NCBI GenBank assembly: GCA_024330965.1
Contig: JANDJL010000011.1
Coordinates: 20,091 to 84,090 of the forward strand
Source: Nitrospira sp.
GTDB lineage: Bacteria; Nitrospirota; Nitrospiria; Nitrospirales; Nitrospiraceae
Direction: 5' to 3'
DNA: 64,000 bases
Shown here piece after piece: positions 14,532-27,854 of this stretch. The notes under the pieces were generated by a model, which was not told the DNA's origin, searched no databases, and worked only from the letters and a program-made list of their open reading frames with translations. The translations under genes and the position numbers were made by a program. How positions within the stretch are numbered: position 1 is the stretch's first letter; every line of letters starts with the position of its first letter.

Positions 14532-16307
14532 TTACAGAGTTTTTCCCTTCTTCTTGTTGGCACGGCGCGTCAATACCCACCCCTCGAGAAATACGACGCC
14601 GACGGCAATGACAACAGGATAAATGTAGGTCTCCTGTGGAATTGGAGGATTCATAAACGTGTAATAAAACGCAGACACGGCCATTTTTCGACCTGCATCC
14701 CCGTTATGGCCGTCCCATGCGAAAAAGACCGTGGGAATATACTGGCCGACTTCAAAAAACGTGTCTTCATCATAGTCCTGGTCTTTCTTGTTTCCCAGGG
14801 GACGTTCGATCATCACATACCAACGACCATTCTTCCATTCGCTTTTCAGGACTTTAAGATGCTCCTCGTAGTTATCACGTTCCTCAAAGTCCTTATCCCA
14901 TCCAGTCCCTTTGAAAGCCCTGATGGAACCATCGGCTTCCCACTTCACGATATCGACCGGGAATTGCTCGTTCGTTCCGAACAGATACCGCGGCTTAATG
15001 GGAGCGGGGAGTTCCTTCCATTTGACGGGAGTTTCAATGGCGATGGCGTCATTATAGACCGGATAGTTATTCTGCTTCGCCGCTATGGAACCTTCTTCTC
15101 CGGTGGCCGGCTCTTGCTCTGGAATGTCGATATTGACTTCAGTCGGTGCCCAGGGCAACTTGCCCTCAGCCACGCTCTTTGTTCGGTCATCCCATTCCAA
15201 GAGATAGGCAATGGACTTATCGTTGTACAAGGACCGAACCCATATGTCGTCAATTCGATTGACGAAATTTCTCGGCTTATGGGTGATCTGCCCGCCCATC
15301 GCGACATAGCGCCGCGGAGCATTTTTCCACGCTTCGGCCTCGATATCGGCCGGAATTTCCCCTTCCACTAGATTTGATGGAATCACAAAATCGATTTTAG
15401 GCTTATCGGTTAACGGATCTATCGGAAGAGGCTTCCCATCAGCATCACGCTCACACAAGGAATTCACAAAATTGGCGATGTCCCACCGCTCATCTATTGT
15501 CGTGTTGTCCGCAAACGACGGCATGGGAGTTCCATTGATCCCTGTCGAGAAGGTTCTAAAAATGTTGACCACATTGTAAGGATCTTGCCGACTCCCTCTA
15601 AAGTTCCAACATTTATGCCAATTAGCCGGCTGGATAGAAAATCCCCAATCGTCTTTCAAATTGAACGCGTTGCCATCACCACGACCTTCAAGGCCATGGC
15701 ATTCAATACATTTCTTTTCAACAATCAGTTCGGCCCCCCTTTTGAGGCTTTCTTCCGTTGGCGGTTTGGGCTTGAGTTCTGCCACGTTGAGAATAGTTTG
15801 GGTCTCCGACTGTTTATCCGTAAAGCTCCTATCCTTCACAAGCTGGGTTGTGACAAAGGCCAGCACTTGGAGTCGTTGTTCCTCTGTCAGAATACCTTCC
15901 CACGGCGGCATAGCCGATCCCGGTAATCCGTGCGTCACCGTGTCGAAGAGGTCATTTTGACCGCGAACGGGCTTTTTGGCGTCGAACAGAGGAAGTTCAC
16001 CGCTGGCCGTATGACGAATTTTAAACGTCCCTTGATTAAAATTACGCGGGCGAGGCCAGAGTCGATCAGCGCCAGGCCCATCGCCCGCACCATCCACACC
16101 ATGACACCACACGCATTTCGTAAAATATACCCTTTTACCGGCCTCGATCATTTCAGCGGAAGGTGGCGCCGCGAGCTCTCCCTTTTTAAATCCTTCTGGA
16201 ATCCCCCCTTGAGCAAAAGCCGGAATTTCCATGCCAACGGTCATTAAAACGGCCCCGAAGGCAATTGATCGCATCAGCCCAGCCTTCTGAGTTCCACTGT
16301 TTTGCAT
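14532..16307 (-). CDS. Di-heme c-type cytochrome fused to an EB_dh-like (ethylbenzene dehydrogenase gamma-type, heme b) domain, C-terminal TM
   Basis: Signal peptide MQNSGTQKAGLMRSIAFGAVLMTVG..AFA; CVWCH and CIECH; C-terminal half resembles the heme-b gamma subunits of type II DMSO reductases; terminal hydrophobic helix. Confidence 0.75.
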   Translation of the reverse strand: MQNSGTQKAGLMRSIAFGAVLMTVGMEIPAFAQGGIPEGFKKGELAAPPSAEMIEAGKRVYFTKCVWCHGVDGAGDGPGADRLWPRPRNFNQGTFKIRHTASGELPLFDAKKPVRGQNDLFDTVTHGLPGSAMPPWEGILTEEQRLQVLAFVTTQLVKDRSFTDKQSETQTILNVAELKPKPPTEESLKRGAELIVEKKCIECHGLEGRGDGNAFNLKDDWGFSIQPANWHKCWNFRGSRQDPYNVVNIFRTFSTGINGTPMPSFADNTTIDERWDIANFVNSLCERDADGKPLPIDPLTDKPKIDFVIPSNLVEGEIPADIEAEAWKNAPRRYVAMGGQITHKPRNFVNRIDDIWVRSLYNDKSIAYLLEWDDRTKSVAEGKLPWAPTEVNIDIPEQEPATGEEGSIAAKQNNYPVYNDAIAIETPVKWKELPAPIKPRYLFGTNEQFPVDIVKWEADGSIRAFKGTGWDKDFEERDNYEEHLKVLKSEWKNGRWYVMIERPLGNKKDQDYDEDTFFEVGQYIPTVFFAWDGHNGDAGRKMAVSAFYYTFMNPPIPQETYIYPVVIAVGVVFLEGWVLTRRANKKKGKTL

Positions 16308-16345
16308 AGCGTTCCTCTTCCTCAATGAACAAGTCGGAAATACGA

Positions 16346-17383
16346 TCAATCCCAGGTTCGTGGATAGTAGCCTGTATGCCAATATTCGAACAGGATGACC
16401 TTCCATATTTCATCAACCGTCAGGTGCTGTTCCCAAGGCGGCATAACGGATGCCCATGGAAACCCTTCATTTGGGAGACCAATCCCACCTTTTGCGACGC
16501 GCCAGAAGATAAACGTCTCCTGTAACTGAGCAATTGTTCCCGGATCCGTGAAATTCGCTGGGATGGGGTTGAAAGCGAAAGCGTGCAGACCGCGGCCGTT
16601 TAAGTTATCGCCATGACAGAAGTGGCAATTTTGGAAAAATATTTCCCCACCTTCACGGACATACTTTAAGTAACCTTCAGCCTTTTCATCCCAAGGATTG
16701 GCATTCGGCTTCATGAGCCGCCCCATACCCTGCTCAACGATAAGCGAATTGGTATATTCTTGATCGTATTTGCCCTCAGGATTGACACGATACGGATTCA
16801 AGGAGGTTTGCAACACATAGGTCTTTCCGTGCACTTTGGTACTGGCAGGTGGAGCAGGATGCACAGTCCTCAATTCAATCGGCTCTTCCGATTTCGGCAT
16901 CATAGCATTGTACGAGAACCCCCACGTAAGAATGGGAAGAGCGATCAAATAAACGTATCGAAGCACTTTATTGAAGCCAGTCTGAGCATCCAAGACATTC
17001 AAGATCGGCTGTTTGAATTTTTTCCAGTCTTCCTCGTTGGAGGAAACCCACATGAGCACGGCGACAAGCCCTACCGTTCCATACATGGCCCGGACGCTGA
17101 ATGGAATGGGTGGGTAGATTCGATACTTAATGTAGAGAAGGAAGAAGATCCAAAATCCTATCCCTTGCCAGAACCGCGGAATTCCCATTCCCATTGCATT
17201 GAGCATATAGCTCAGTCCGGTAAACCCAAGAACGTAGCATCCGACCTCGAAGAGCATCTGCATCGGCATGTACCCTTCGACAAGACGAATCGTATTCGAA
17301 GGGATAATGTCGAATATCATTCCAGCCAGCAGCAGCAAACCGACAACCCCTACTAAGGCGCCGATCGACATCAGTGCTTTCAT
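16346..17383 (-). CDS. Membrane-anchored monoheme cytochrome c
   Basis: Several N-terminal TM segments, then CHFCHGDNLNGRG cytochrome c domain. Confidence 0.85.
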   Translation of the reverse strand: MKALMSIGALVGVVGLLLLAGMIFDIIPSNTIRLVEGYMPMQMLFEVGCYVLGFTGLSYMLNAMGMGIPRFWQGIGFWIFFLLYIKYRIYPPIPFSVRAMYGTVGLVAVLMWVSSNEEDWKKFKQPILNVLDAQTGFNKVLRYVYLIALPILTWGFSYNAMMPKSEEPIELRTVHPAPPASTKVHGKTYVLQTSLNPYRVNPEGKYDQEYTNSLIVEQGMGRLMKPNANPWDEKAEGYLKYVREGGEIFFQNCHFCHGDNLNGRGLHAFAFNPIPANFTDPGTIAQLQETFIFWRVAKGGIGLPNEGFPWASVMPPWEQHLTVDEIWKVILFEYWHTGYYPRTWD

Positions 17384-17431: not shown

Positions 17432-18742
17432 TTATGAAATTTTTGGCGGCGGTGCTCCAGCTTTTACCTGAGAGAGATAATCGACTATTTTCTTCAGAGC
17501 CCCGGCACTCAATTTTTGTCCGAATACTTTGGGCATCGTGTTGTCAGGGAACGGCTTGACCACGTATGCACTAGGATCGACAATTGACTCCATAATGTAT
17601 TCGGCCGGAGACTTGGCTGTTCCCTTGTAGTCAGGCGCTTTGATACGCTGAGCCGCCGTCGTTCCCTCCTCGAGCTTCGGACCAATAGTGCCGACGGCCC
17701 CAGGAATACCCGGTATCGTGTGGCAGGCCACACACTGGGCTTTGGCAAAAATTTGATCCACAGGCTCTGAGCCATCAGCCATTAAAGAGGTCGCTCCATC
17801 TGCCGGCTTGTCTTCCTGAAGCTGGGGACGCTCCCCTTCCGGGATAAACTTTTCATAGGACTTGATCATTTCCTCAAACGACGGAGGCTCCAATCCCTCT
17901 CGTACATACATCCAGGTATCGACAGCCGCCAACTCTGGAAGACTCAGAGAGATCGGTGGCTTATGGATGGCTGGCATGGGACTTTCCCTATCGTTCGTCC
18001 CCTTCACCCCATACCCTTCAACTACATAGCAGCTTGGACAAGCGTGAGACTCCGCTATGTATTCTTGAGCATTCTCTGCCGTGCCAGACCCCGGGAAAGC
18101 CTCCTTCACCGAATATTCTCGTTTAGCAGGATTTCCTTTAGAGTATTTCGGATCTTCCAACCGTTCCTTGGCACGATTAATCAGCCCAAGCAAATTTGGG
18201 GCACGCTCTCCCAACATGCCGGCATGGAACGCATGGCACAAGGGACATTGCCCTTTCCCAATCGCCCCCTGCTCTTTGTTTTTCCCGATTCCTCCAAAAA
18301 TGATTTTCTCTCCCTCGTCGGCCAACTGCTGAGGCGTCATGGAACTGAAATCAAGCTTCTCTTCTACAGGAGGAAATCCCCCTTCTACCTGAGGAAGCCA
18401 GTTCCCATATCCAGACAGAAACGCTGCGACAAAGAACATAAACCCACCGATCTTGAGCAACGCGCTCAGATTGGTGAAGTACAGCGCCATAATGAAAGAC
18501 GTGGCGGTAATCATCGCGAGAGAAACCGGCAGCAGCCTGCTTTCTCCATAAAAGTTGGTTTTGTAATTGGCGATCGCCACGAACAAGAGGAATGTCGAAA
18601 CGATCCCGATAAACGTCTTAAAAACCGCCCGTCTTTTGGCAGCAGGATCACTGATCGATACTTGAAAATAGACAAGCAGCCCAATCAGGATGGCAATCGC
18701 CATCCAACCCATCGAAAGCGCCTCAGCAATCAAATTACCCAA
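17432..18742 (-). CDS. Membrane-anchored cytochrome c with two c-type domains
   Basis: N-terminal TM segments; CPLCH and CVACH motifs. Confidence 0.85.
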   Translation of the reverse strand: MGNLIAEALSMGWMAIAILIGLLVYFQVSISDPAAKRRAVFKTFIGIVSTFLLFVAIANYKTNFYGESRLLPVSLAMITATSFIMALYFTNLSALLKIGGFMFFVAAFLSGYGNWLPQVEGGFPPVEEKLDFSSMTPQQLADEGEKIIFGGIGKNKEQGAIGKGQCPLCHAFHAGMLGERAPNLLGLINRAKERLEDPKYSKGNPAKREYSVKEAFPGSGTAENAQEYIAESHACPSCYVVEGYGVKGTNDRESPMPAIHKPPISLSLPELAAVDTWMYVREGLEPPSFEEMIKSYEKFIPEGERPQLQEDKPADGATSLMADGSEPVDQIFAKAQCVACHTIPGIPGAVGTIGPKLEEGTTAAQRIKAPDYKGTAKSPAEYIMESIVDPSAYVVKPFPDNTMPKVFGQKLSAGALKKIVDYLSQVKAGAPPPKIS

Positions 18743-18825: not shown

Positions 18826-20742
18826 TCAATGGCTTCCAGCCGGTTGTGGGATAGCCCCAGGAACCCCGACTTTTGCCTCAACCGGAGCCTTCTTTGCCGT
18901 CAAACTGCCGAGCCAGAAGACAAAGAGAATGCTGATCCAGAAAAACAGAACGTTGGCCGAGATCACATTGGCGGCAAACCCTACCGTATGGGTATAGGCC
19001 CACGGAGAGTTATCCCGCATAATTTCATTGACATGCCAAAAGAGACGAACCGAGGAACGAATATACCCCATCAATCCCATCATCCAGGTAAAAGCAGTTG
19101 CCAGCATGATGAGAGCATACTGGGAGCGGGCTGAAATTTTGCCCCATTCGATGGGCCCCATCTGCTTGGCACCTTTCATCATCATACTATTGAGGGTGAA
19201 CATGAAAAAGAGGCACGACAGAGTCGTTGCAACTTGCGGCACAGACAGGCCAACACGCACGTTCGCAGGAATGTAATAGCCGTAAATCGCAAGGAATATG
19301 ATGTTTATATATGCGCAGGTAAAAAACACCCCCATAAAGATATTGCCGAACCTTGCCCATGACACAGTTGAAACCTTGTTACCCCTCATGTACCACACAA
19401 AGCTCAGCACCGTGGTCGTGATGATGACGTTGATGCCACCATTCTTCGCTGACATGACTCCATAGTTACCCAGAACTGGGTGCTGCTGCCCTCCCATCGC
19501 CTTCAATTCGGCCGGCGTCATCACCATGGTATGAGGGGTAATAAAGACCATAAACCCGCAGGCCAACAAAAAGACCAGGTACTTGATATACCGCTGATAC
19601 TTCTCGGCACCCCGCATACGGCCCATGGCCTGCCATAAGTAATAATTGGTGCTCAAGAACAGAATTCCTATCATAGTAGCCTGGATAATAAACAGCCACG
19701 CCAGCAGACCGCCCATGAGCGTGATCCCCATTTGCTGCCTGTAGGCATAGACCTCTCTCATCAGCCAATAGCCTGCAAATGGGAGAGGAATGAGGAACGC
19801 CACCCCGAGCGCCATTGCGATATAACCCATCCAATCGTAATGGGCTCGCTCTTCATCGGTCTTTGCAGCCAAAAACTTATAGGCCGCATAGGCAGCCACA
19901 ACACCGCCCCCGAATGCCATGTTCCCGAGAATACGATGGAGATTTAGCGGATTCCACAAAGCCGTATGAATGACGTGCCAAATGTTGCCCAGATAGCGAC
20001 CCTGTTCATCAACGCCGGCAGGCGACATCATGAAACCAATCCATGAATTCGCCAGGAACATGAGCAGCGTGCCAATCACGTTCAGCACGACAGACATGCT
20101 CAGGTGAATCCACTTCAGGAACCCCTCTTTCATCTTGTCCCAGCCATAATAATAAATGTAGAGGGTTCCACTCTCCGCCACAAACATCAAGGCATAGATA
20201 TGCATCACGGGACGGAAGATGCTTGAGAGGTACGAGAAAAAGGTCGGATATAGCGTCAGGAATGTAAAAATAAGAATCCCGCCCAGGATGGCCGTCAACG
20301 AGTAGGCGGTCAGACTGATCTTAATAAAGTCGTATGCCAGTTGGTCATATCGCTTGGCAAGCGCCTTATCTTTGGTGACCACCCCCATGAACTCAATGAT
20401 CATGCAGAAAATCGGGACGGCAAGAACAAAGCTTCCATAATAAAGGTGCTGCTGATTGGCAAACCAGAGCAACACCCGACTTTCAAAGTTGTATCGCGGA
20501 TAATCGGTGGGGCTATCCGTTGTCTTAGGAGCAGGAGCGCCAACCACAATGCCTTCGGTCTTGTAGTAGACATCCCGTGCCTTTTCAACTTTTTCGCCCT
20601 CTTTCTGCGCTCCCTCGGCGACTGGAGCCTCTTCACCTGTAGCCGGCGACGGAAGCGCCATAACGATCGGAAGCAGAAGAGCAACAACCATCGCGCTCAG
20701 CGCAATGATCGAGAGTAACTTCTTCCGGGTTACGACACCCAT
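18826..20742 (-). CDS. Cytochrome bd-like ubiquinol/terminal oxidase-family membrane subunit (copy 1)
   Basis: 638 aa, many TM segments; SRVLLWFANQQHLYYGSFVLAVPIFC resembles the CydA N-terminal helix; paralogous to the 24342..26219 gene. Confidence 0.75.
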   Translation of the reverse strand: MGVVTRKKLLSIIALSAMVVALLLPIVMALPSPATGEEAPVAEGAQKEGEKVEKARDVYYKTEGIVVGAPAPKTTDSPTDYPRYNFESRVLLWFANQQHLYYGSFVLAVPIFCMIIEFMGVVTKDKALAKRYDQLAYDFIKISLTAYSLTAILGGILIFTFLTLYPTFFSYLSSIFRPVMHIYALMFVAESGTLYIYYYGWDKMKEGFLKWIHLSMSVVLNVIGTLLMFLANSWIGFMMSPAGVDEQGRYLGNIWHVIHTALWNPLNLHRILGNMAFGGGVVAAYAAYKFLAAKTDEERAHYDWMGYIAMALGVAFLIPLPFAGYWLMREVYAYRQQMGITLMGGLLAWLFIIQATMIGILFLSTNYYLWQAMGRMRGAEKYQRYIKYLVFLLACGFMVFITPHTMVMTPAELKAMGGQQHPVLGNYGVMSAKNGGINVIITTTVLSFVWYMRGNKVSTVSWARFGNIFMGVFFTCAYINIIFLAIYGYYIPANVRVGLSVPQVATTLSCLFFMFTLNSMMMKGAKQMGPIEWGKISARSQYALIMLATAFTWMMGLMGYIRSSVRLFWHVNEIMRDNSPWAYTHTVGFAANVISANVLFFWISILFVFWLGSLTAKKAPVEAKVGVPGAIPQPAGSH

Positions 20743-20823: not shown

Positions 20824-20955
20824 CTACTGGCGGAAGAGATACCAAAAATCCAACCCTTGCATATCCATCAAGTAATGATCGATCAACGTAAAGTACCCCA
20901 CCGCGATGACCAACGATACAATCACTGCGATGACCGGATTGTTCAGTGCGCTCAT
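20824..20955 (-). CDS. Single-TM microprotein, 43 aa
   Basis: MSALNNPVIAVIVSLVIAVGYFTLIDHYLMDMQGLDFWYLFRQ; purine-rich GAGGAGAGAAGAGGT upstream of ATG at 20955; the track gives a longer 65-aa version. Confidence 0.7.
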   Translation of the reverse strand: MSALNNPVIAVIVSLVIAVGYFTLIDHYLMDMQGLDFWYLFRQ

Positions 20956-21039
20956 ACCTCTTCTCTCCTCTTGACCATTTACCCCTCTTTCACAAAAAAA
21001 CCGCTTGGGCCCGAACTGCACCCTGACATTCCTGGACTG

Positions 21040-21165
21040 TTAGCAGGGGCACTGAATACCCGCAAACCAATAAAAAAACCACAGCCCGACGGCACAGGTA
21101 ATATAGAAAATCATCTTGCCGATTTTGATTTTAACATCGCTATCCTGCTGTGTTGCCTCTGCCAT
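21040..21165 (-). CDS. Single-TM microprotein, 41 aa, C-terminal CPC
   Basis: My reading of the minus strand: MAEATQQDSDVKIKIGKMIFYITCAVGLWFFYWFAGIQCPC; AAGGAGC upstream; not in the supplied ORF track. Confidence 0.65.
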   Translation of the reverse strand: MAEATQQDSDVKIKIGKMIFYITCAVGLWFFYWFAGIQCPC

Positions 21166-21294
21166 CTATAGCTCCTTGTTCCTGATTAAGAGGAATGAAC
21201 GACCGGCCTTACGTTTCTTGACAGAGAGGTGACCCTGTGTTAATCAACTCCTCGCAAACGCGGTATGAACTTTTGAAGTTGCAAGGAAAAAATT

Positions 21295-21399
21295 ATGTCA
21301 AAAAATGCAAAAGTGTTTGACATTATAGTTTTGGCGGGAATGGTTGTCAACATCATTTTGGCCGTGTTTTTGATCCTGTACTACTTCGACTTTCTCTAA
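21295..21399 (+). CDS. Single-TM microprotein, 34 aa, plus strand
   Basis: MSKNAKVFDIIVLAGMVVNIILAVFLILYYFDFL; AAGGA upstream of ATG; not in the supplied ORF track. Confidence 0.55.
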   Translation: MSKNAKVFDIIVLAGMVVNIILAVFLILYYFDFL

Positions 21400-21401
21400 C
21401 A

Positions 21402-22313
21402 TCAAGTCTTTGCTTTTCTCTCTTCATTTTCGGAAATTTCCGACGTTGCACAGCGAAACCCTATGGTCTCATCTCGGAAGTCAGGCATCATTTTGCTTCG
21501 ACTCGTAATGCGGATGTCGGCGCCGGTGGTCGTGTATCCTCCCCCTCGAAGCACCCGATAGGTCCCATACTCAGGACCTGTAGGGTCCTTGTCAGGTGAA
21601 TCTCTATAATATGTTTCTTGGTACCAATCGGCGACCCATTCCATCACGTTGCCCGCTCCATCCATGACTCCATATGGGCTCTGGTCCGTTTTGAAACTGC
21701 CAACCGGAGCAGACACCTCGTATCCATCATGCACTCGAGCCCAGTTGGCGCCGTTGGCCAACCCGTTATTCCCCCAAGGCCAGAGCCTCCCGTCGCTACC
21801 GCGCATGGCCTTTTCCCACTCCGCCTCCGTCGGAAGACGCCTCCCCTTCCATCGGCAATATGCCTCTGCATCGTCCCAGGAAACGTACACGACCGGTTGA
21901 TTAGGCCCCTTCATCTTTCCGCCGCTCTTGGCATACCGTGCCGGCAAACCCGGTTTTCGATGTCCGGTCGCCAGAACAAATTGCTGATATTGAGAATTAG
22001 TCACTTCGTATCGATCGATGAAAAACTCTTCTAAATAAATTGTCCGTTGCGGTTGTTCGTCAAATCCTCCACTCTCGGTCCCACGAATAAACGGTCCGGC
22101 TGGAATCCTCACCATCTCTTCTTCGATCGGCTCTTCTTTGGACACAGTGTCGGCCTCTGGTCCATCTATGGGGATCGCCTCTCCCGGAATCGCTCCCCCC
22201 AACGGCTCTTCATATGGCGTTAGTGTTGTACCCTTCATAATGCCCGCTATGGGAAGAGCGGCACAGACCAACACCACGATCAGAAACACGACTTTGAACT
22301 TTGTCTCGAGCAT
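21402..22313 (-). CDS. Membrane-anchored SUMF1/FGE-sulfatase-domain protein
   Basis: N-terminal TM; MVRIPAGPFIRGTESGGFDEQPQRTIYLEEFFIDRYEVTNSQY, RLPTEAEWEKA, GNVMEWVADWY, VLRGGGY, GFRCA. Confidence 0.85.
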   Translation of the reverse strand: MLETKFKVVFLIVVLVCAALPIAGIMKGTTLTPYEEPLGGAIPGEAIPIDGPEADTVSKEEPIEEEMVRIPAGPFIRGTESGGFDEQPQRTIYLEEFFIDRYEVTNSQYQQFVLATGHRKPGLPARYAKSGGKMKGPNQPVVYVSWDDAEAYCRWKGRRLPTEAEWEKAMRGSDGRLWPWGNNGLANGANWARVHDGYEVSAPVGSFKTDQSPYGVMDGAGNVMEWVADWYQETYYRDSPDKDPTGPEYGTYRVLRGGGYTTTGADIRITSRSKMMPDFRDETIGFRCATSEISENEERKAKT

Positions 22314-22320
22314 GCCCGCC

Positions 22321-23241
22321 TCATGGAGCAGCAACTGATCCGTTTTCTTGATCAACATCCGCTGCGCAACGGATTCCGATCGTGATATCCGCACGCCAGT
22401 GTTTTGCCGCAAATCGCTTGGAGAGTCTCGCATTATGCGCTGTTTCTCTCCATGATCCGCCGCGGACCACTTTGAGGTCGCCGTCCTCCGGCCCCTTGGG
22501 ATCACGATACGGAGACTTCTTGTAATAGTTCTCGTCGTACGAATCGGCGACCCACTCCGCAACATTGCCAGTCATATCATACAGTCCGTACGGACTCCGC
22601 CCCGTCTCAAACGAACCGGGAGGAGCAAGATATTTATACCCGTCTTCGCTCCCATCCAAATTGGCGTGATCCGGAGCAAACTTATCGCCCCATGCGTACT
22701 TCCTCTTCCCCTCGCCGCGGCCTGCCTTTTCCCATTCCGCCTCCGTGGGAAGGCGCTTGCCGGCCCATTTACAATAGGCCGCCGCGTCGCTCCAAGAGAC
22801 GCTCATGGCGGCAAACTCGGGTTGCAGCAGCTTAGATTGGTCGTCCTCAAACACTTCGATCCTCGGCATCGGGCGCTTCGTCATTTTGGCAAATCGCATA
22901 TATTCCGCCTGCGTCACTTCCTTCAAATCAATATAGAATCCTTTTAAGAACACTTGATGTTCGGGGGCTTCGTCCGGATCACCGTCGTTGCTCCCCATAA
23001 TGAACGGCCCCTCCGGGATATGGACCATTTCACGTCCTTCGTCGCCGATTTTTGTTTTGTACATCGAATAGTCTTGGGACATCGCTTTGGGCGCAGCCGC
23101 CTGAGTTTCGGATGCCACGGATTTCGCAAGTTCTTTGATCTTGTTCGCCTTATACGACTCATACACCAGCATGCCGATCAGTCCAAAAAACGACGCAAAG
23201 ACAAAAATGATCGACCCATACAACACGCCTCTATTTTCCAC
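22321..23241 (-). CDS. Membrane-anchored SUMF1/FGE-sulfatase-domain protein (second copy)
   Basis: N-terminal TM; MVHIPEGPFIMGSNDGDPDEAPEHQVFLKGFYID, RLPTEAEWEKAGRG, GNVAEWVADSYD, VVRGGSWRE, GIRCA. Confidence 0.86.
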   Translation of the reverse strand: MENRGVLYGSIIFVFASFFGLIGMLVYESYKANKIKELAKSVASETQAAAPKAMSQDYSMYKTKIGDEGREMVHIPEGPFIMGSNDGDPDEAPEHQVFLKGFYIDLKEVTQAEYMRFAKMTKRPMPRIEVFEDDQSKLLQPEFAAMSVSWSDAAAYCKWAGKRLPTEAEWEKAGRGEGKRKYAWGDKFAPDHANLDGSEDGYKYLAPPGSFETGRSPYGLYDMTGNVAEWVADSYDENYYKKSPYRDPKGPEDGDLKVVRGGSWRETAHNARLSKRFAAKHWRADITIGIRCAADVDQENGSVAAP

Positions 23242-23652: not shown

Positions 23653-24342
23653 TCACTGTTTCATCTTTACCGGAAGCGCCATCAGCGGCCCGATGTCGAT
23701 CTCGACACCGGGTCCCGCAACAATCGAGATTCCCCATGCCCTTGGCGCGGGCTCATGCCCATGAATCTTCTTGAAATCTTCATAGACGTTCACACGTTCC
23801 TCAAACCATTGTCCCAGCGCCGTGGTCCCGCTTCGGACCACGATCTCCGACCCACTGAACATCCCTCCCTCGGTGAGCGTGCCTTCGGGCTTCGAGGGAC
23901 TCCAGACGTATTTCGTGAAGACTGGAATAAACAGAAGATCGGTATCAAGCGAGGCATAGACGGCGGCGAGCGGTTCAGTCCCTGTCGGCGCCTTCAACAA
24001 TCGCCATCGCCAAGTCAGGACCGGATAGGCTTTGGGATCCCAATCGATCTTCTTTTTTTTGATCCGTTGCCCCGCGTCCTTCGCTGACAAAAAGACGTCG
24101 CCGTTCTCCGATTGAACTTTATAGGCCTCACGACCTTTTGACTTGCTCCGTTGGCTTTCGTGTTCCCAATGCGAAGGAAACCCGTCGGCATCTTTCATTT
24201 TGAAATCTTCCAAGATCAGGACTTGGTCTTCCGCCAGACCGAAATCAGGCCGGGAGACAAATCCGATCGCCACAAGAGCGATGATCATGGTTTGAATCGG
24301 CACCTTCCATCGCATCAACTTCCCCCTCTCCCTCTCATTCAT
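23653..24342 (-). CDS. DUF3047 family protein
   Basis: [66 protein letters not shown] pattern; ATGA overlap with the upstream bd-like gene. Confidence 0.7.
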
Positions 24343-26219
24343 CAGGTTTCATGCGAAGAGACCGGCGACAACAGCGGCGCATTCGTATTATGACGCTCTT
24401 CTCCCATTACCGGTCGCCGACCCCATTGACACATCCAAAAGAGAACCAGCACCGCTCCCCAAAAGACCACCATGTTCAATGTCACCATTTTCGCGGCGAA
24501 CGCCAGATCCGGAGTAAACGCCCAGGGCGACACGTCGGCCATCACTTCGCTCACGTGCCACGCCAATCGACCTGATGAGCGAATATAGCCCATCAGCCCC
24601 ATCACCCAACTGAAGGCCGCCGCCATTATAAACAGCACCACCATCCCACGCGCTGGAATGTTCCCCCATTGGATCGGCCCATGAACGATCGACCGCTTCA
24701 GCATGGCGCGATTGATCAACAATCCGACGACAATGACCGTCAAGGTCGTGAAGGCTTGCGGCGCCGATAATCCCACTCGAATGTTCGCCGGCAGATAGAA
24801 TCCATAAACGGACAGCCCCACGACATTTGCGAGACCGACCGCAAACAGTATCGCGATCACCACGTTGCCCGTTGTGACCCACGGCACCGTCATGGTCCGA
24901 TTCGCCCGCCGCATATACAAGAAGCTGAGGGCCGTACAGAGGAGAATGACGTTGATGGCTCCATTCTTGGACGACATGACTCCATAGTTCCCAATAACCG
25001 GATGCTGCGCGCCACCCATCGCCTTCATCTCTCCCGCCGACATGAGCAGCGTATGAGGAGTCAACCAAATGAACAGCGCCAACAAGAGTCCCCCGAACAC
25101 CAATTGATAGTAGGGTTGATATCGTTCCGCTCCCTTCAACCGTGCCATGCCTTGCCAGATGTAATAATTGATGCCCAGAAAGAGAGCCCCGATCAGCAAC
25201 GCCTGCACGACAAACATCCAGGTCAGCAGCCCTCCCATCATGGTCACGCCCATAGTCTGCCGAAATGCAAAAACCGACCGCATCAACCAATACCCGGCGA
25301 TCGGCATGGGCACCAACGCGCATACCGTCACGACGAGAAAGACGTACCCCACCCAATCAAAATAGGCCCGTTCCTCGGTCGTCTTGGCGGTGAAGAACCG
25401 GTAACAGGCGTACGCCAACACGACCGCCCCTCCGGACATGATGTCGGCCAGAAACCGATGCACGTTGAGCGGATTCCAGAGGACGGAATGCAACAGATGC
25501 CACCCATTCCCAAGAAACCGACCTTGAGCATCCACGCCCGCCGGCGCCATCATGAATGCGGACCAGGCATTGGCCAACAGCAACAGAGCGGTCCCCACGA
25601 TGTTCGTCGCAACCCCGATGGCCGCATGTATCCATTTCAGGCCCCGCTCGGTCATCCGATCCCAACTATAGTAATACAAGATCAGGAGCACGGACTCGAT
25701 CACGAATACGGCGGCATAGGCCGGCATAAACGATTTGAAAGTTCCGCCCATGTAAGTCATGAAGCTCGGATAGAGCCCGATAAACATCGCGAGCATCAGA
25801 CTTCCGATGATGGCGGTCACGGAGAGCGCCAACACCGCCACCTTCGCCAGATCTCTTGCCAACCCGTCATACCGGAGCGACAACGCCGGCTTGGAGGTCA
25901 TCAACCCCAGAAATTCCAGCAGGGCGCAAAAGAGCGGCAACGCCAACACGAATCCGCCGAAATACGTGTGCTGTTGGGTTACAAACCACACCAGGGCCCG
26001 GCTGTCGAATGAGCCAATCTGCGGGTACGCCGTTTCGTGCGGGGCAGGCGCGGCGGGACCTTGCGGCACGCCGGGCGTGTTGAAATAGACGTCCAGCGAC
26101 TCCTCAGCTAAGGAAGCCCCTTCCATACCGAGCCCCAACAAGACGACCAGGGCCGCGATGGCTCCCATCAGATCGAGCGCTCCCCATTTCTCTCGTCGCA
26201 AACGACCCCGAACGACCAT
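24342..26219 (-). CDS. Cytochrome bd-like oxidase-family membrane subunit (copy 2)
   Basis: Homologous along its length to the 18826..20742 product (SRALVWFVTQQHTYFGGFVLALPLFC, WHLLHSVLWNPLNVHRFL, YGFYLPANIRVGLSAPQ); start taken as MVVRGRLRREK at 26219. Confidence 0.75.
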   Translation of the reverse strand: MVVRGRLRREKWGALDLMGAIAALVVLLGLGMEGASLAEESLDVYFNTPGVPQGPAAPAPHETAYPQIGSFDSRALVWFVTQQHTYFGGFVLALPLFCALLEFLGLMTSKPALSLRYDGLARDLAKVAVLALSVTAIIGSLMLAMFIGLYPSFMTYMGGTFKSFMPAYAAVFVIESVLLILYYYSWDRMTERGLKWIHAAIGVATNIVGTALLLLANAWSAFMMAPAGVDAQGRFLGNGWHLLHSVLWNPLNVHRFLADIMSGGAVVLAYACYRFFTAKTTEERAYFDWVGYVFLVVTVCALVPMPIAGYWLMRSVFAFRQTMGVTMMGGLLTWMFVVQALLIGALFLGINYYIWQGMARLKGAERYQPYYQLVFGGLLLALFIWLTPHTLLMSAGEMKAMGGAQHPVIGNYGVMSSKNGAINVILLCTALSFLYMRRANRTMTVPWVTTGNVVIAILFAVGLANVVGLSVYGFYLPANIRVGLSAPQAFTTLTVIVVGLLINRAMLKRSIVHGPIQWGNIPARGMVVLFIMAAAFSWVMGLMGYIRSSGRLAWHVSEVMADVSPWAFTPDLAFAAKMVTLNMVVFWGAVLVLFWMCQWGRRPVMGEERHNTNAPLLSPVSSHET

Positions 26220-26220
26220 G

Positions 26221-27273
26221 CTACACCTTTGATCCAGGAACAGTCGGCATCGGCGTGCCCACATGTTTTGCTTTTCCAAGAATGCCCATCACAAAAGGAC
26301 ACCGAAGCAGGGCATCATCGATCTTTTGTCCTTGTTGTTCTTCAACGTGCCGGCGATACCCCAAATAGTATCCGTAGAGCGCCATGACTCCGCTCACAAA
26401 GGCCCCGATGGTAACGGAAAAACCGGGCGAGATGGTCGGCAGTTGCAATACAAACAGACCGACACCCATCGCGACCAAATAGTACGTGGACGAAAACGCA
26501 AGCCCCGGCCACCACCAATACTTGAAGAGCTCGGAAAGACTCGTCGCGGCGAACCGCGCTGTCCATGAGGCTCGTCCGCTCAGACCGCCGAAATAGGCAC
26601 ACAAGGTGATCGCGCCCCCCAGCAACGTCACGGCGAGCAATGGCACGATGACCGTCTGCTGCCCCATAACCACCTGATCGAGGGAAGCGGCTGCCGCACC
26701 GATCACCAATCCGGCCGCTACCCAAGGACCGACCTGGACCGCGAAGCCCCTTATCATTGCTCGCAACGGTGCTCCGTCCGGGAATGTGGGAAACGGTTTT
26801 CCCATTGCGGCGATCCGACGCACATGGCCGATTTCGAACGCGTCCCGCGCAACCGACGTACAAGCGACCATGATCGCCATCATGGCAGGACCATCCGGAT
26901 GGTGCAGGTAGTTGTACCCCACCATCCATAACAGCGCCAACACCAACAATGAGAGCTGCACGCCGTAGACCGCTCCGATCCAGAAAATCATCCAGGCGAG
27001 AACACGTCCGCCGTCTTGGCGGGCAATCACCGCCCAGGAGGCGGATCGCCCGATCCGATAGGCGAGCAGAGCCGTCGCCATTGCGATCAGACCGCTTAAC
27101 GAAAGCAATATCAGCGGCTCCGCGATCGGAACCAGGTGTTTGGCCATGCGATACACCACGAACGCGCCCAAGCCCGACACAAGCATGATCGTCCGTTTCC
27201 GCTTTCGGACGGACTCCTCCGTCACAGCCAGGCTCAAACTGGGAAGCACCCGCAAGGCCATCCGATGCAACAT
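26221..27273 (-). CDS. Polytopic membrane protein of unknown function
   Basis: Multiple predicted TM segments; start assumed at MLHRMALRV (27273); the longer ORF N-terminus overlaps the PCP_red gene and looks non-coding. Confidence 0.6.
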   Translation of the reverse strand: MLHRMALRVLPSLSLAVTEESVRKRKRTIMLVSGLGAFVVYRMAKHLVPIAEPLILLSLSGLIAMATALLAYRIGRSASWAVIARQDGGRVLAWMIFWIGAVYGVQLSLLVLALLWMVGYNYLHHPDGPAMMAIMVACTSVARDAFEIGHVRRIAAMGKPFPTFPDGAPLRAMIRGFAVQVGPWVAAGLVIGAAAASLDQVVMGQQTVIVPLLAVTLLGGAITLCAYFGGLSGRASWTARFAATSLSELFKYWWWPGLAFSSTYYLVAMGVGLFVLQLPTISPGFSVTIGAFVSGVMALYGYYLGYRRHVEEQQGQKIDDALLRCPFVMGILGKAKHVGTPMPTVPGSKV

Positions 27274-27359: not shown

Positions 27360-27854
27360 TTATGTCCTTTGAGCTCCCATTCCAAAATACTTCGCCTTGA
27401 CCTCTTCCATCAGCGACACGGTCACGACATTCATCCCTCGCTCGACCGCCGTGCGTTCCAGCTCGATCTTCGCCATCGCTCGCACAGCGGGCGGCACCTT
27501 CCCCAATCGCCGTTCCGCTTCCGGTTCCCACTCGATCCGTTCGTCGGACGGCGGGCGGAGCAGCGAATCATACGTAATAACCCTGGCATCTCGGGCCCTA
27601 GCCCATTCTTCCGCTTCCTGCCGAACAAGTGCCGCCAAGTAAGGCGGCATTCGGTCCAGCCGATGCAGTGCCTCGTCCGTCCACATCAATCGATCGACCA
27701 ATCCACCGACCTGCCCCGCCGGCACATCGACCCCTACCCTCAGCCCACAACCACGACATTCTGATCGAACAAACCACTGAGGTACCCCGCCTTCGCAAAC
27801 CTGTTCCTCAATCCCTTCCGTGTGCATCCACCGGCCGCACCCGCACGTCAACAT
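27360..27854 (-). CDS. PCP_red (protochlorophyllide reductase C-terminal-like) domain protein with N-terminal Cys motifs
   Basis: Two PCP_red-like units: DEALHRLDRMPPYLAALVRQEAEEWARARDARVITYDSLL and EPEAERRLGKVPPAVRAMAKIELERTAVERGMNVVTVSLMEEVKAKYFG; N-terminal CGCG..CRGCG. Confidence 0.72.
   Translation of the reverse strand: MLTCGCGRWMHTEGIEEQVCEGGVPQWFVRSECRGCGLRVGVDVPAGQVGGLVDRLMWTDEALHRLDRMPPYLAALVRQEAEEWARARDARVITYDSLLRPPSDERIEWEPEAERRLGKVPPAVRAMAKIELERTAVERGMNVVTVSLMEEVKAKYFGMGAQRT

Follow-up and report, generated by a model that had tools for sequence, protein, structure and literature searches.

The window, which is the whole 64-kb stretch of Nitrospira DNA that was analysed, contains three short open reading frames between two bd-like oxidase genes (18826–20742 and 24342–26279, both on the minus strand and both matching Pfam Cyt_bd_oxida_I). 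P1 (20824–20955, minus strand), P2 (21040–21165, minus strand) and P3 (21295–21399, plus strand) encode single-TM microproteins of 43, 41 and 34 aa, respectively, and P2 ends in CPC. All three were found where the initial annotation had placed them. Its description of one hydrophobic helix and a purine-rich ribosome-binding site for each was also borne out; the start codons are preceded by the Shine–Dalgarno-like sequences AAGAGGAGAG for P1 (20963–20972, minus strand; including AGGAGAG), AAGGAG for P2 (21172–21177, minus strand) and AAGGAA for P3 (21283–21288, plus strand). P2 and P1 lie directly upstream of the gene at 18826–20742, the first large gene downstream of the pair, which encodes bd-like_2, a NIDE0901/OR-N2-type CydA; P3 is divergent. 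The CydA gene is followed on the minus strand by genes for two membrane cytochromes c (A, 17432–18742; B, 16346–17383) and, at the end of the cassette, for an alternative NxrC-like protein with cytochrome c domains and an EB_dh heme-b domain (14532–16406). The AlphaFold model of the 18826–20742 product had a mean pLDDT of 81.5, and its ten best PDB matches were all CydA of bd oxidases.

The gene order described for bd-like_2 of N. moscoviensis is that of this cassette (PMC6606698), which contains no CydB gene. The NIDE0901-like OR-N2 subunit and an OR-N1 CydA are believed to combine into a CydAA' terminal oxidase (PMC12342949, PMC10839748), for which bd-like_1 (24342–26279) has been proposed as the OR-N1-type partner (PMC12342949). 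The cassette with bd-like_2, two cytochromes c and the alternative NxrC belongs to this putative oxidase, the subunit composition of which lacks experimental confirmation (PMC10839748). The accessible portions of PMC6606698, PMC12342949 and PMC10839748 do not mention small subunits of the enzyme. The labels OR-N1 and OR-N2 used here rest on gene order and on papers citing Murali et al. 2021. Further genes were observed in the neighbourhood, all on the minus strand: two consecutive formylglycine-generating-type (FGE-sulfatase-like) membrane proteins at 21402–23241, conserved adjoining P3; a PCP_red domain protein (PF08369, protochlorophyllide reductase 57 kD subunit) at 27360–27854, conserved in the oxidase neighbourhood; and 'cup', a secreted protein with a weak carboxypeptidase-regulatory-like match, at 29900–30730.

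When 148 Nitrospiraceae genomes were searched by tblastn, P1, P2 and P3 were detected in 131, 134 and 135 genomes, respectively. Restriction to the 110 near-complete genomes gave 105, 106 and 108, and those absences that were inspected fell at contig ends or in runs of N. In representatives of most genera, synteny extended from the alternative NxrC gene as far as the sequence preceding the second oxidase, and P3 again lay on the other strand. The conservation is strictly syntenic and far beyond chance. Substitutions were mostly synonymous: pN/pS was 0.160 (P1), 0.078 (P2) and 0.044 (P3) over the conserved cores and 0.27, 0.17 and 0.15 over the whole ORFs in 31 representative genomes. Loss of the reading frame or start codon in related genomes, which had been named beforehand as refuting the proposal, clearly did not occur, since the starts are conserved as ATG or occasionally GTG. 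By the standard of sequence comparison, P1, P2 and P3 are real protein-coding genes under purifying selection; their expression is inferred.

The conserved residues are specific and do not reflect generic hydrophobicity. In P1, the C-terminal segment DHYLMDMQGLDFWYLFR is conserved and the cross-phylum motif is F..xD...M..QGL, in which F, D, M and QGL are the consensus residues. The P2 core is GKMIFYITCAVGLWFFYWFAGIQCPC and its cross-phylum motif is GP.LF......FF.W, with G, F, FF and W as consensus residues. P3 reads FDIIVLAGMVVNIILAVFLILYYFDFL; its consensus residues are D, I, G and N, and the Gly and Asn of the helix are kept across phyla. A single TM helix together with specific invariant residues was thus found for all three proteins, with P1 being two-helix in some genera. 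In these deep-branching genera, the P1 homologues are readable with an extra N-terminal TM helix and have 57–79 aa. Searches of P1, P2 and P3 against Pfam, NCBIfam and PDB profiles gave only insignificant matches, and no family in them covers any of the three. The CPC tail of P2, predicted to be periplasmic, is confined to the order Nitrospirales, outside which the homologues have different, often His-containing tails. An ancestral metal site at this tail was therefore rejected, as it is order-restricted and other homologues end otherwise; within Nitrospirales the tail may bind metal. Several Nitrospiraceae genomes also carry stand-alone P2 paralogues (41–67 aa, single TM, nearly all ending in GIQCPC), whose neighbourhoods share neither an oxidase nor any other gene. 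Because such paralogues occur away from any oxidase, P2-like proteins may have another role.

The association with the OR-N2 gene extends beyond Nitrospiraceae. Profile searches of 246 Nitrospirota genomes detected P2 in 82, P3 in 94 and strong CydA matches in 109. Throughout the class, P3 adjoins the OR-N2 gene, usually together with recognisable P1 and P2, even when the locus has no second bd-like gene, and in distant Nitrospirota families the genes form one co-directional operon in the order P3-P2-P1-CydA-cytochromes c. A CydA-alignment scan of 85,488 species genomes yielded 80 loci in Nitrospirota, Nitrospinota, Alpha-, Gamma- and 'Delta'-proteobacteria and one Lambdaproteobacterium, most of which have small single-helix ORFs before CydA. 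With profiles built from Nitrospirota alone, both P1 and P2 were recovered directly upstream of this CydA cassette in members of the Alpha-, Gamma- and 'Delta'-proteobacteria and in part of the Nitrospinota.

Iterated profiles with seeds picked beside CydA are circular, and the sole non-circular test applied these Nitrospirota-only profiles to 76 non-Nitrospirota loci translated in six frames (1.95 million residues), at E < 0.01. It was revealed that P1 lies directly upstream of CydA in 58 of the 76 loci with two matches elsewhere, and P2 in 51 with one match elsewhere. P3 was found within 1.6 kb upstream of CydA in 28 of the 76, with nine matches elsewhere, several of which adjoin the conserved 'cup' gene of Gammaproteobacteria. 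Reversed-profile controls gave no match in the same 76 loci at this threshold. Across lineages, conservation of the microproteins immediately beside OR-N2 CydA thus exceeds the background. No microproteins were found in four Nitrospinota loci with ample upstream sequence, nor beside extra OR-N2 CydA copies (~74–83% identical) in four genomes; these second copies also lack the cytochrome c cassette. Two side observations concern 'cup': its homologue is the direct neighbour of P3 in Gammaproteobacteria, and several loci, from Alphaproteobacteria and some others, carry a tandem second, diverged CydA–cytochrome c–NxrC-like cassette with 'cup' and without microproteins. In the genome of the window, the other bd-like paralogues, including bd-like_1, have no microproteins beside them. 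The initial annotation had placed the three genes between two oxidase modules; this location is correct, but they belong only to the downstream module with the gene at 18826–20742, not to both.

It was also proposed there that the three are candidate accessory subunits, as are CydX and CcoQ. The genomic association with OR-N2 CydA strongly supports the first part, with membership in the complex being inferred, whereas membership in the CydX or CcoQ families did not hold, given the lack of profile matches and the different gene order. CydX of cytochrome bd-I (YbgT/YccB family) resembles P1, P2 and P3 in being an accessory subunit with a single helix and less than 50 aa, encoded with a CydA-type gene. 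None of the three matched its Pfam profile YbgT_YccB, and CydX goes with a subset of qOR1 long-Q-loop enzymes (PMC13189123), whereas the present proteins are three in number, lie upstream of CydA and partner an OR-N2 CydA rather than qOR1-type cydAB. CydS of Geobacillus and CydH of E. coli are non-homologous single helices on CydA, indicating that such subunits evolved repeatedly; no sequence relation to them was detected and the oxidase subfamily is different. CcoQ and other small subunits of heme-copper oxidases are likewise single-helix accessory subunits of cytochrome c oxidases, but the neighbour here is an enzyme of the bd superfamily, and P1, P2 and P3 showed neither a CcoQ/FixQ profile match nor a ccoNOQP operon position. 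The small helical proteins known to be encoded next to bd-type CydA are structural subunits, and they need not be homologous (PMC13189123). P1, P2 and P3 are thus most likely analogous, not homologous, to CydX, CydS and CydH, a reading that rests on analogy.

Gene neighbourhood fits equally well with assembly or maturation factors that act in heme/copper insertion or cytochrome docking and remain outside the finished oxidase. Such a role would produce an identical genomic pattern, and there are no biochemical, proteomic or Ribo-seq data behind the reading as subunits. The C-terminal CPC of Nitrospirales P2, predicted to be periplasmic, could bind metal in such a factor, and the P2 paralogues that are found alone point the same way. 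The proteins are tiny, however, with little soluble domain, the CPC is missing outside the order, and the single helices known to accompany bd-type CydA have a structural part in the enzyme (PMC13189123), so that we regard assembly factors as unlikely. It is slightly less doubtful, although still not favoured, that the three proteins serve the cytochrome c/alternative NxrC part or a III–IV supercomplex instead of CydA itself. Because the entire CydA-cytcA-cytcB-NxrC-like cassette is conserved with the microproteins, genomic context cannot separate these partners; P2 and P1 abut CydA rather than the cytochrome genes, and the known analogues bind CydA. We consider it likely that P1, P2 and P3 are expressed and serve the OR-N2-type CydA cassette as accessory subunits with one helix each, and that the P3 ORF also carries the operon promoter in Nitrospirales; expression, membership, topology, promoter activity and function are inferred.

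The promoter concerns the antisense strand of P3, where an exact sigma-70 consensus, missed by the initial annotation, faces the P2-P1-oxidase operon (21322–21350, minus strand; TTGACA at 21350–21345, N17, TATAAT at 21327–21322). With 12 of 12 positions, it was the sole exact match in a consensus scan of the 64 kb, and no exact consensus occurred in 100 shuffles (0 expected). All 67 distinct Nitrospiraceae P3 sequences carry the exact 12/12 promoter. Of 198 genomes of the order, 170 contained a pattern with both hexamers, which the backward control never gave, and a second family of the order contributed four loci with the exact promoter. The four hexamer codons of P3 showed zero synonymous variation, compared with a mean of 0.35 at other codons; among them, in 67/67 sequences, is ATA, a rare Ile codon that accounts for ~7% of the Ile codons in P1 and P2. 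TTGACA and TATAAT separated by 16–18 nt and conserved under selection, which we required of a sigma-70 promoter, are thus present inside P3.

Codons could also be frozen by an overlapping antisense ORF, RNA structure or codon bias. In line with this, pS is lower overall in P3 (0.45) than in P1 and P2 (0.70–0.78), and codons 5 and 13, which adjoin the hexamers, are frozen as well. The zero-variation codons, however, spell exactly TTGACA-17-TATAAT, including the rare ATA in all 67 sequences, and a scan of the region against Rfam gave no match; an origin of the freezing other than a promoter is accordingly quite improbable. A further possibility, that P3 encodes no protein and owes its conservation solely to the antisense promoter, its frame being open by chance, has in its favour that the hexamers inside the ORF are perfectly frozen. 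Outside the order, no P3 exceeded a 10/12 match, which is about the level obtained by synonymous shuffling. Since P3 persists there with its protein motif D..I..G...N although the antisense promoter is absent, the protein and promoter constraints are separable. In addition, P3 is co-directional with the operon in distant Nitrospirota, and its codons beyond the promoter vary synonymously while the residues stay fixed. P3 as a promoter only was rejected on the ground that it persists without one, and there is hardly any room left for this explanation. P3 is an old protein, inside which the promoter arose in Nitrospirales. There P3 is a protein and probably a promoter as well, with promoter activity being inferred.

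A second promoter-like element lies in the spacer between P2 and P3 (21218–21246, plus strand), with TTGACA at 21218–21223 and a TG-extended TAATCA at 21241–21246. TTGACA and TGTTA were invariant in 19 of 19 aligned intergenic regions. This element is a candidate for the promoter of P3; because its −10 is weak, an operator (inverted repeat TTGACA-N14/15-TGTTA) is not excluded. If both promoters act, it is inferred that transcription would start at ~21253 (plus strand) and ~21315 (minus strand), face to face, with transcripts overlapping by ~60 nt. We lean, with some reserve, towards the interpretation that in the part of Nitrospirales possessing the locus P3 is dual-coded: one of the terminal oxidase's membrane subunits is encoded on the sense strand, and the antisense strand of these codons holds the perfect consensus promoter of the main oxidase operon, facing P3's own. 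If this is true, transcription interference and the overlap of the 5' ends would physically couple the expression of P3 to that of the rest of the enzyme.

In the proposed mechanism, P2 and P1 would be translated from the oxidase operon, which in Nitrospirales would be transcribed from the promoter within the P3 ORF on the opposite strand, so that the P3 gene would serve as a regulatory element besides encoding a protein. The three proteins would adopt an N-in, C-out topology in the membrane. Like CydX, CydS and CydH in canonical bd oxidases, each helix may stabilise its enzyme, here the putative cytochrome c-oxidizing complex IV (terminal oxidase) of Nitrospira, by packing on the CydA/cytochrome c assembly. 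The conserved P1 segment DHYLMDMQGLDFWYLFR, predicted to be periplasmic by the positive-inside rule and the two-TM homologues, probably contacts the periplasmic cytochrome/NxrC side.

On the evidence of genomic association, P1, P2 and P3 represent three new families of microproteins that go with the OR-N2 cassette, and in Nitrospirales one of them probably has a second function as a promoter, the activity of which is inferred. They point to genes too short for most ORF tracks, and a microprotein gene with codons frozen by an embedded promoter on the opposite strand is a clear example of DNA in dual use that lends itself to testing. The OR-N CydAA' oxidase is regarded as the chief terminal oxidase of those nitrite oxidizers that are most widespread, and P1, P2 and P3, which occur also in Proteobacteria, offer a concrete parts list for its purification, heterologous expression and cryo-EM.
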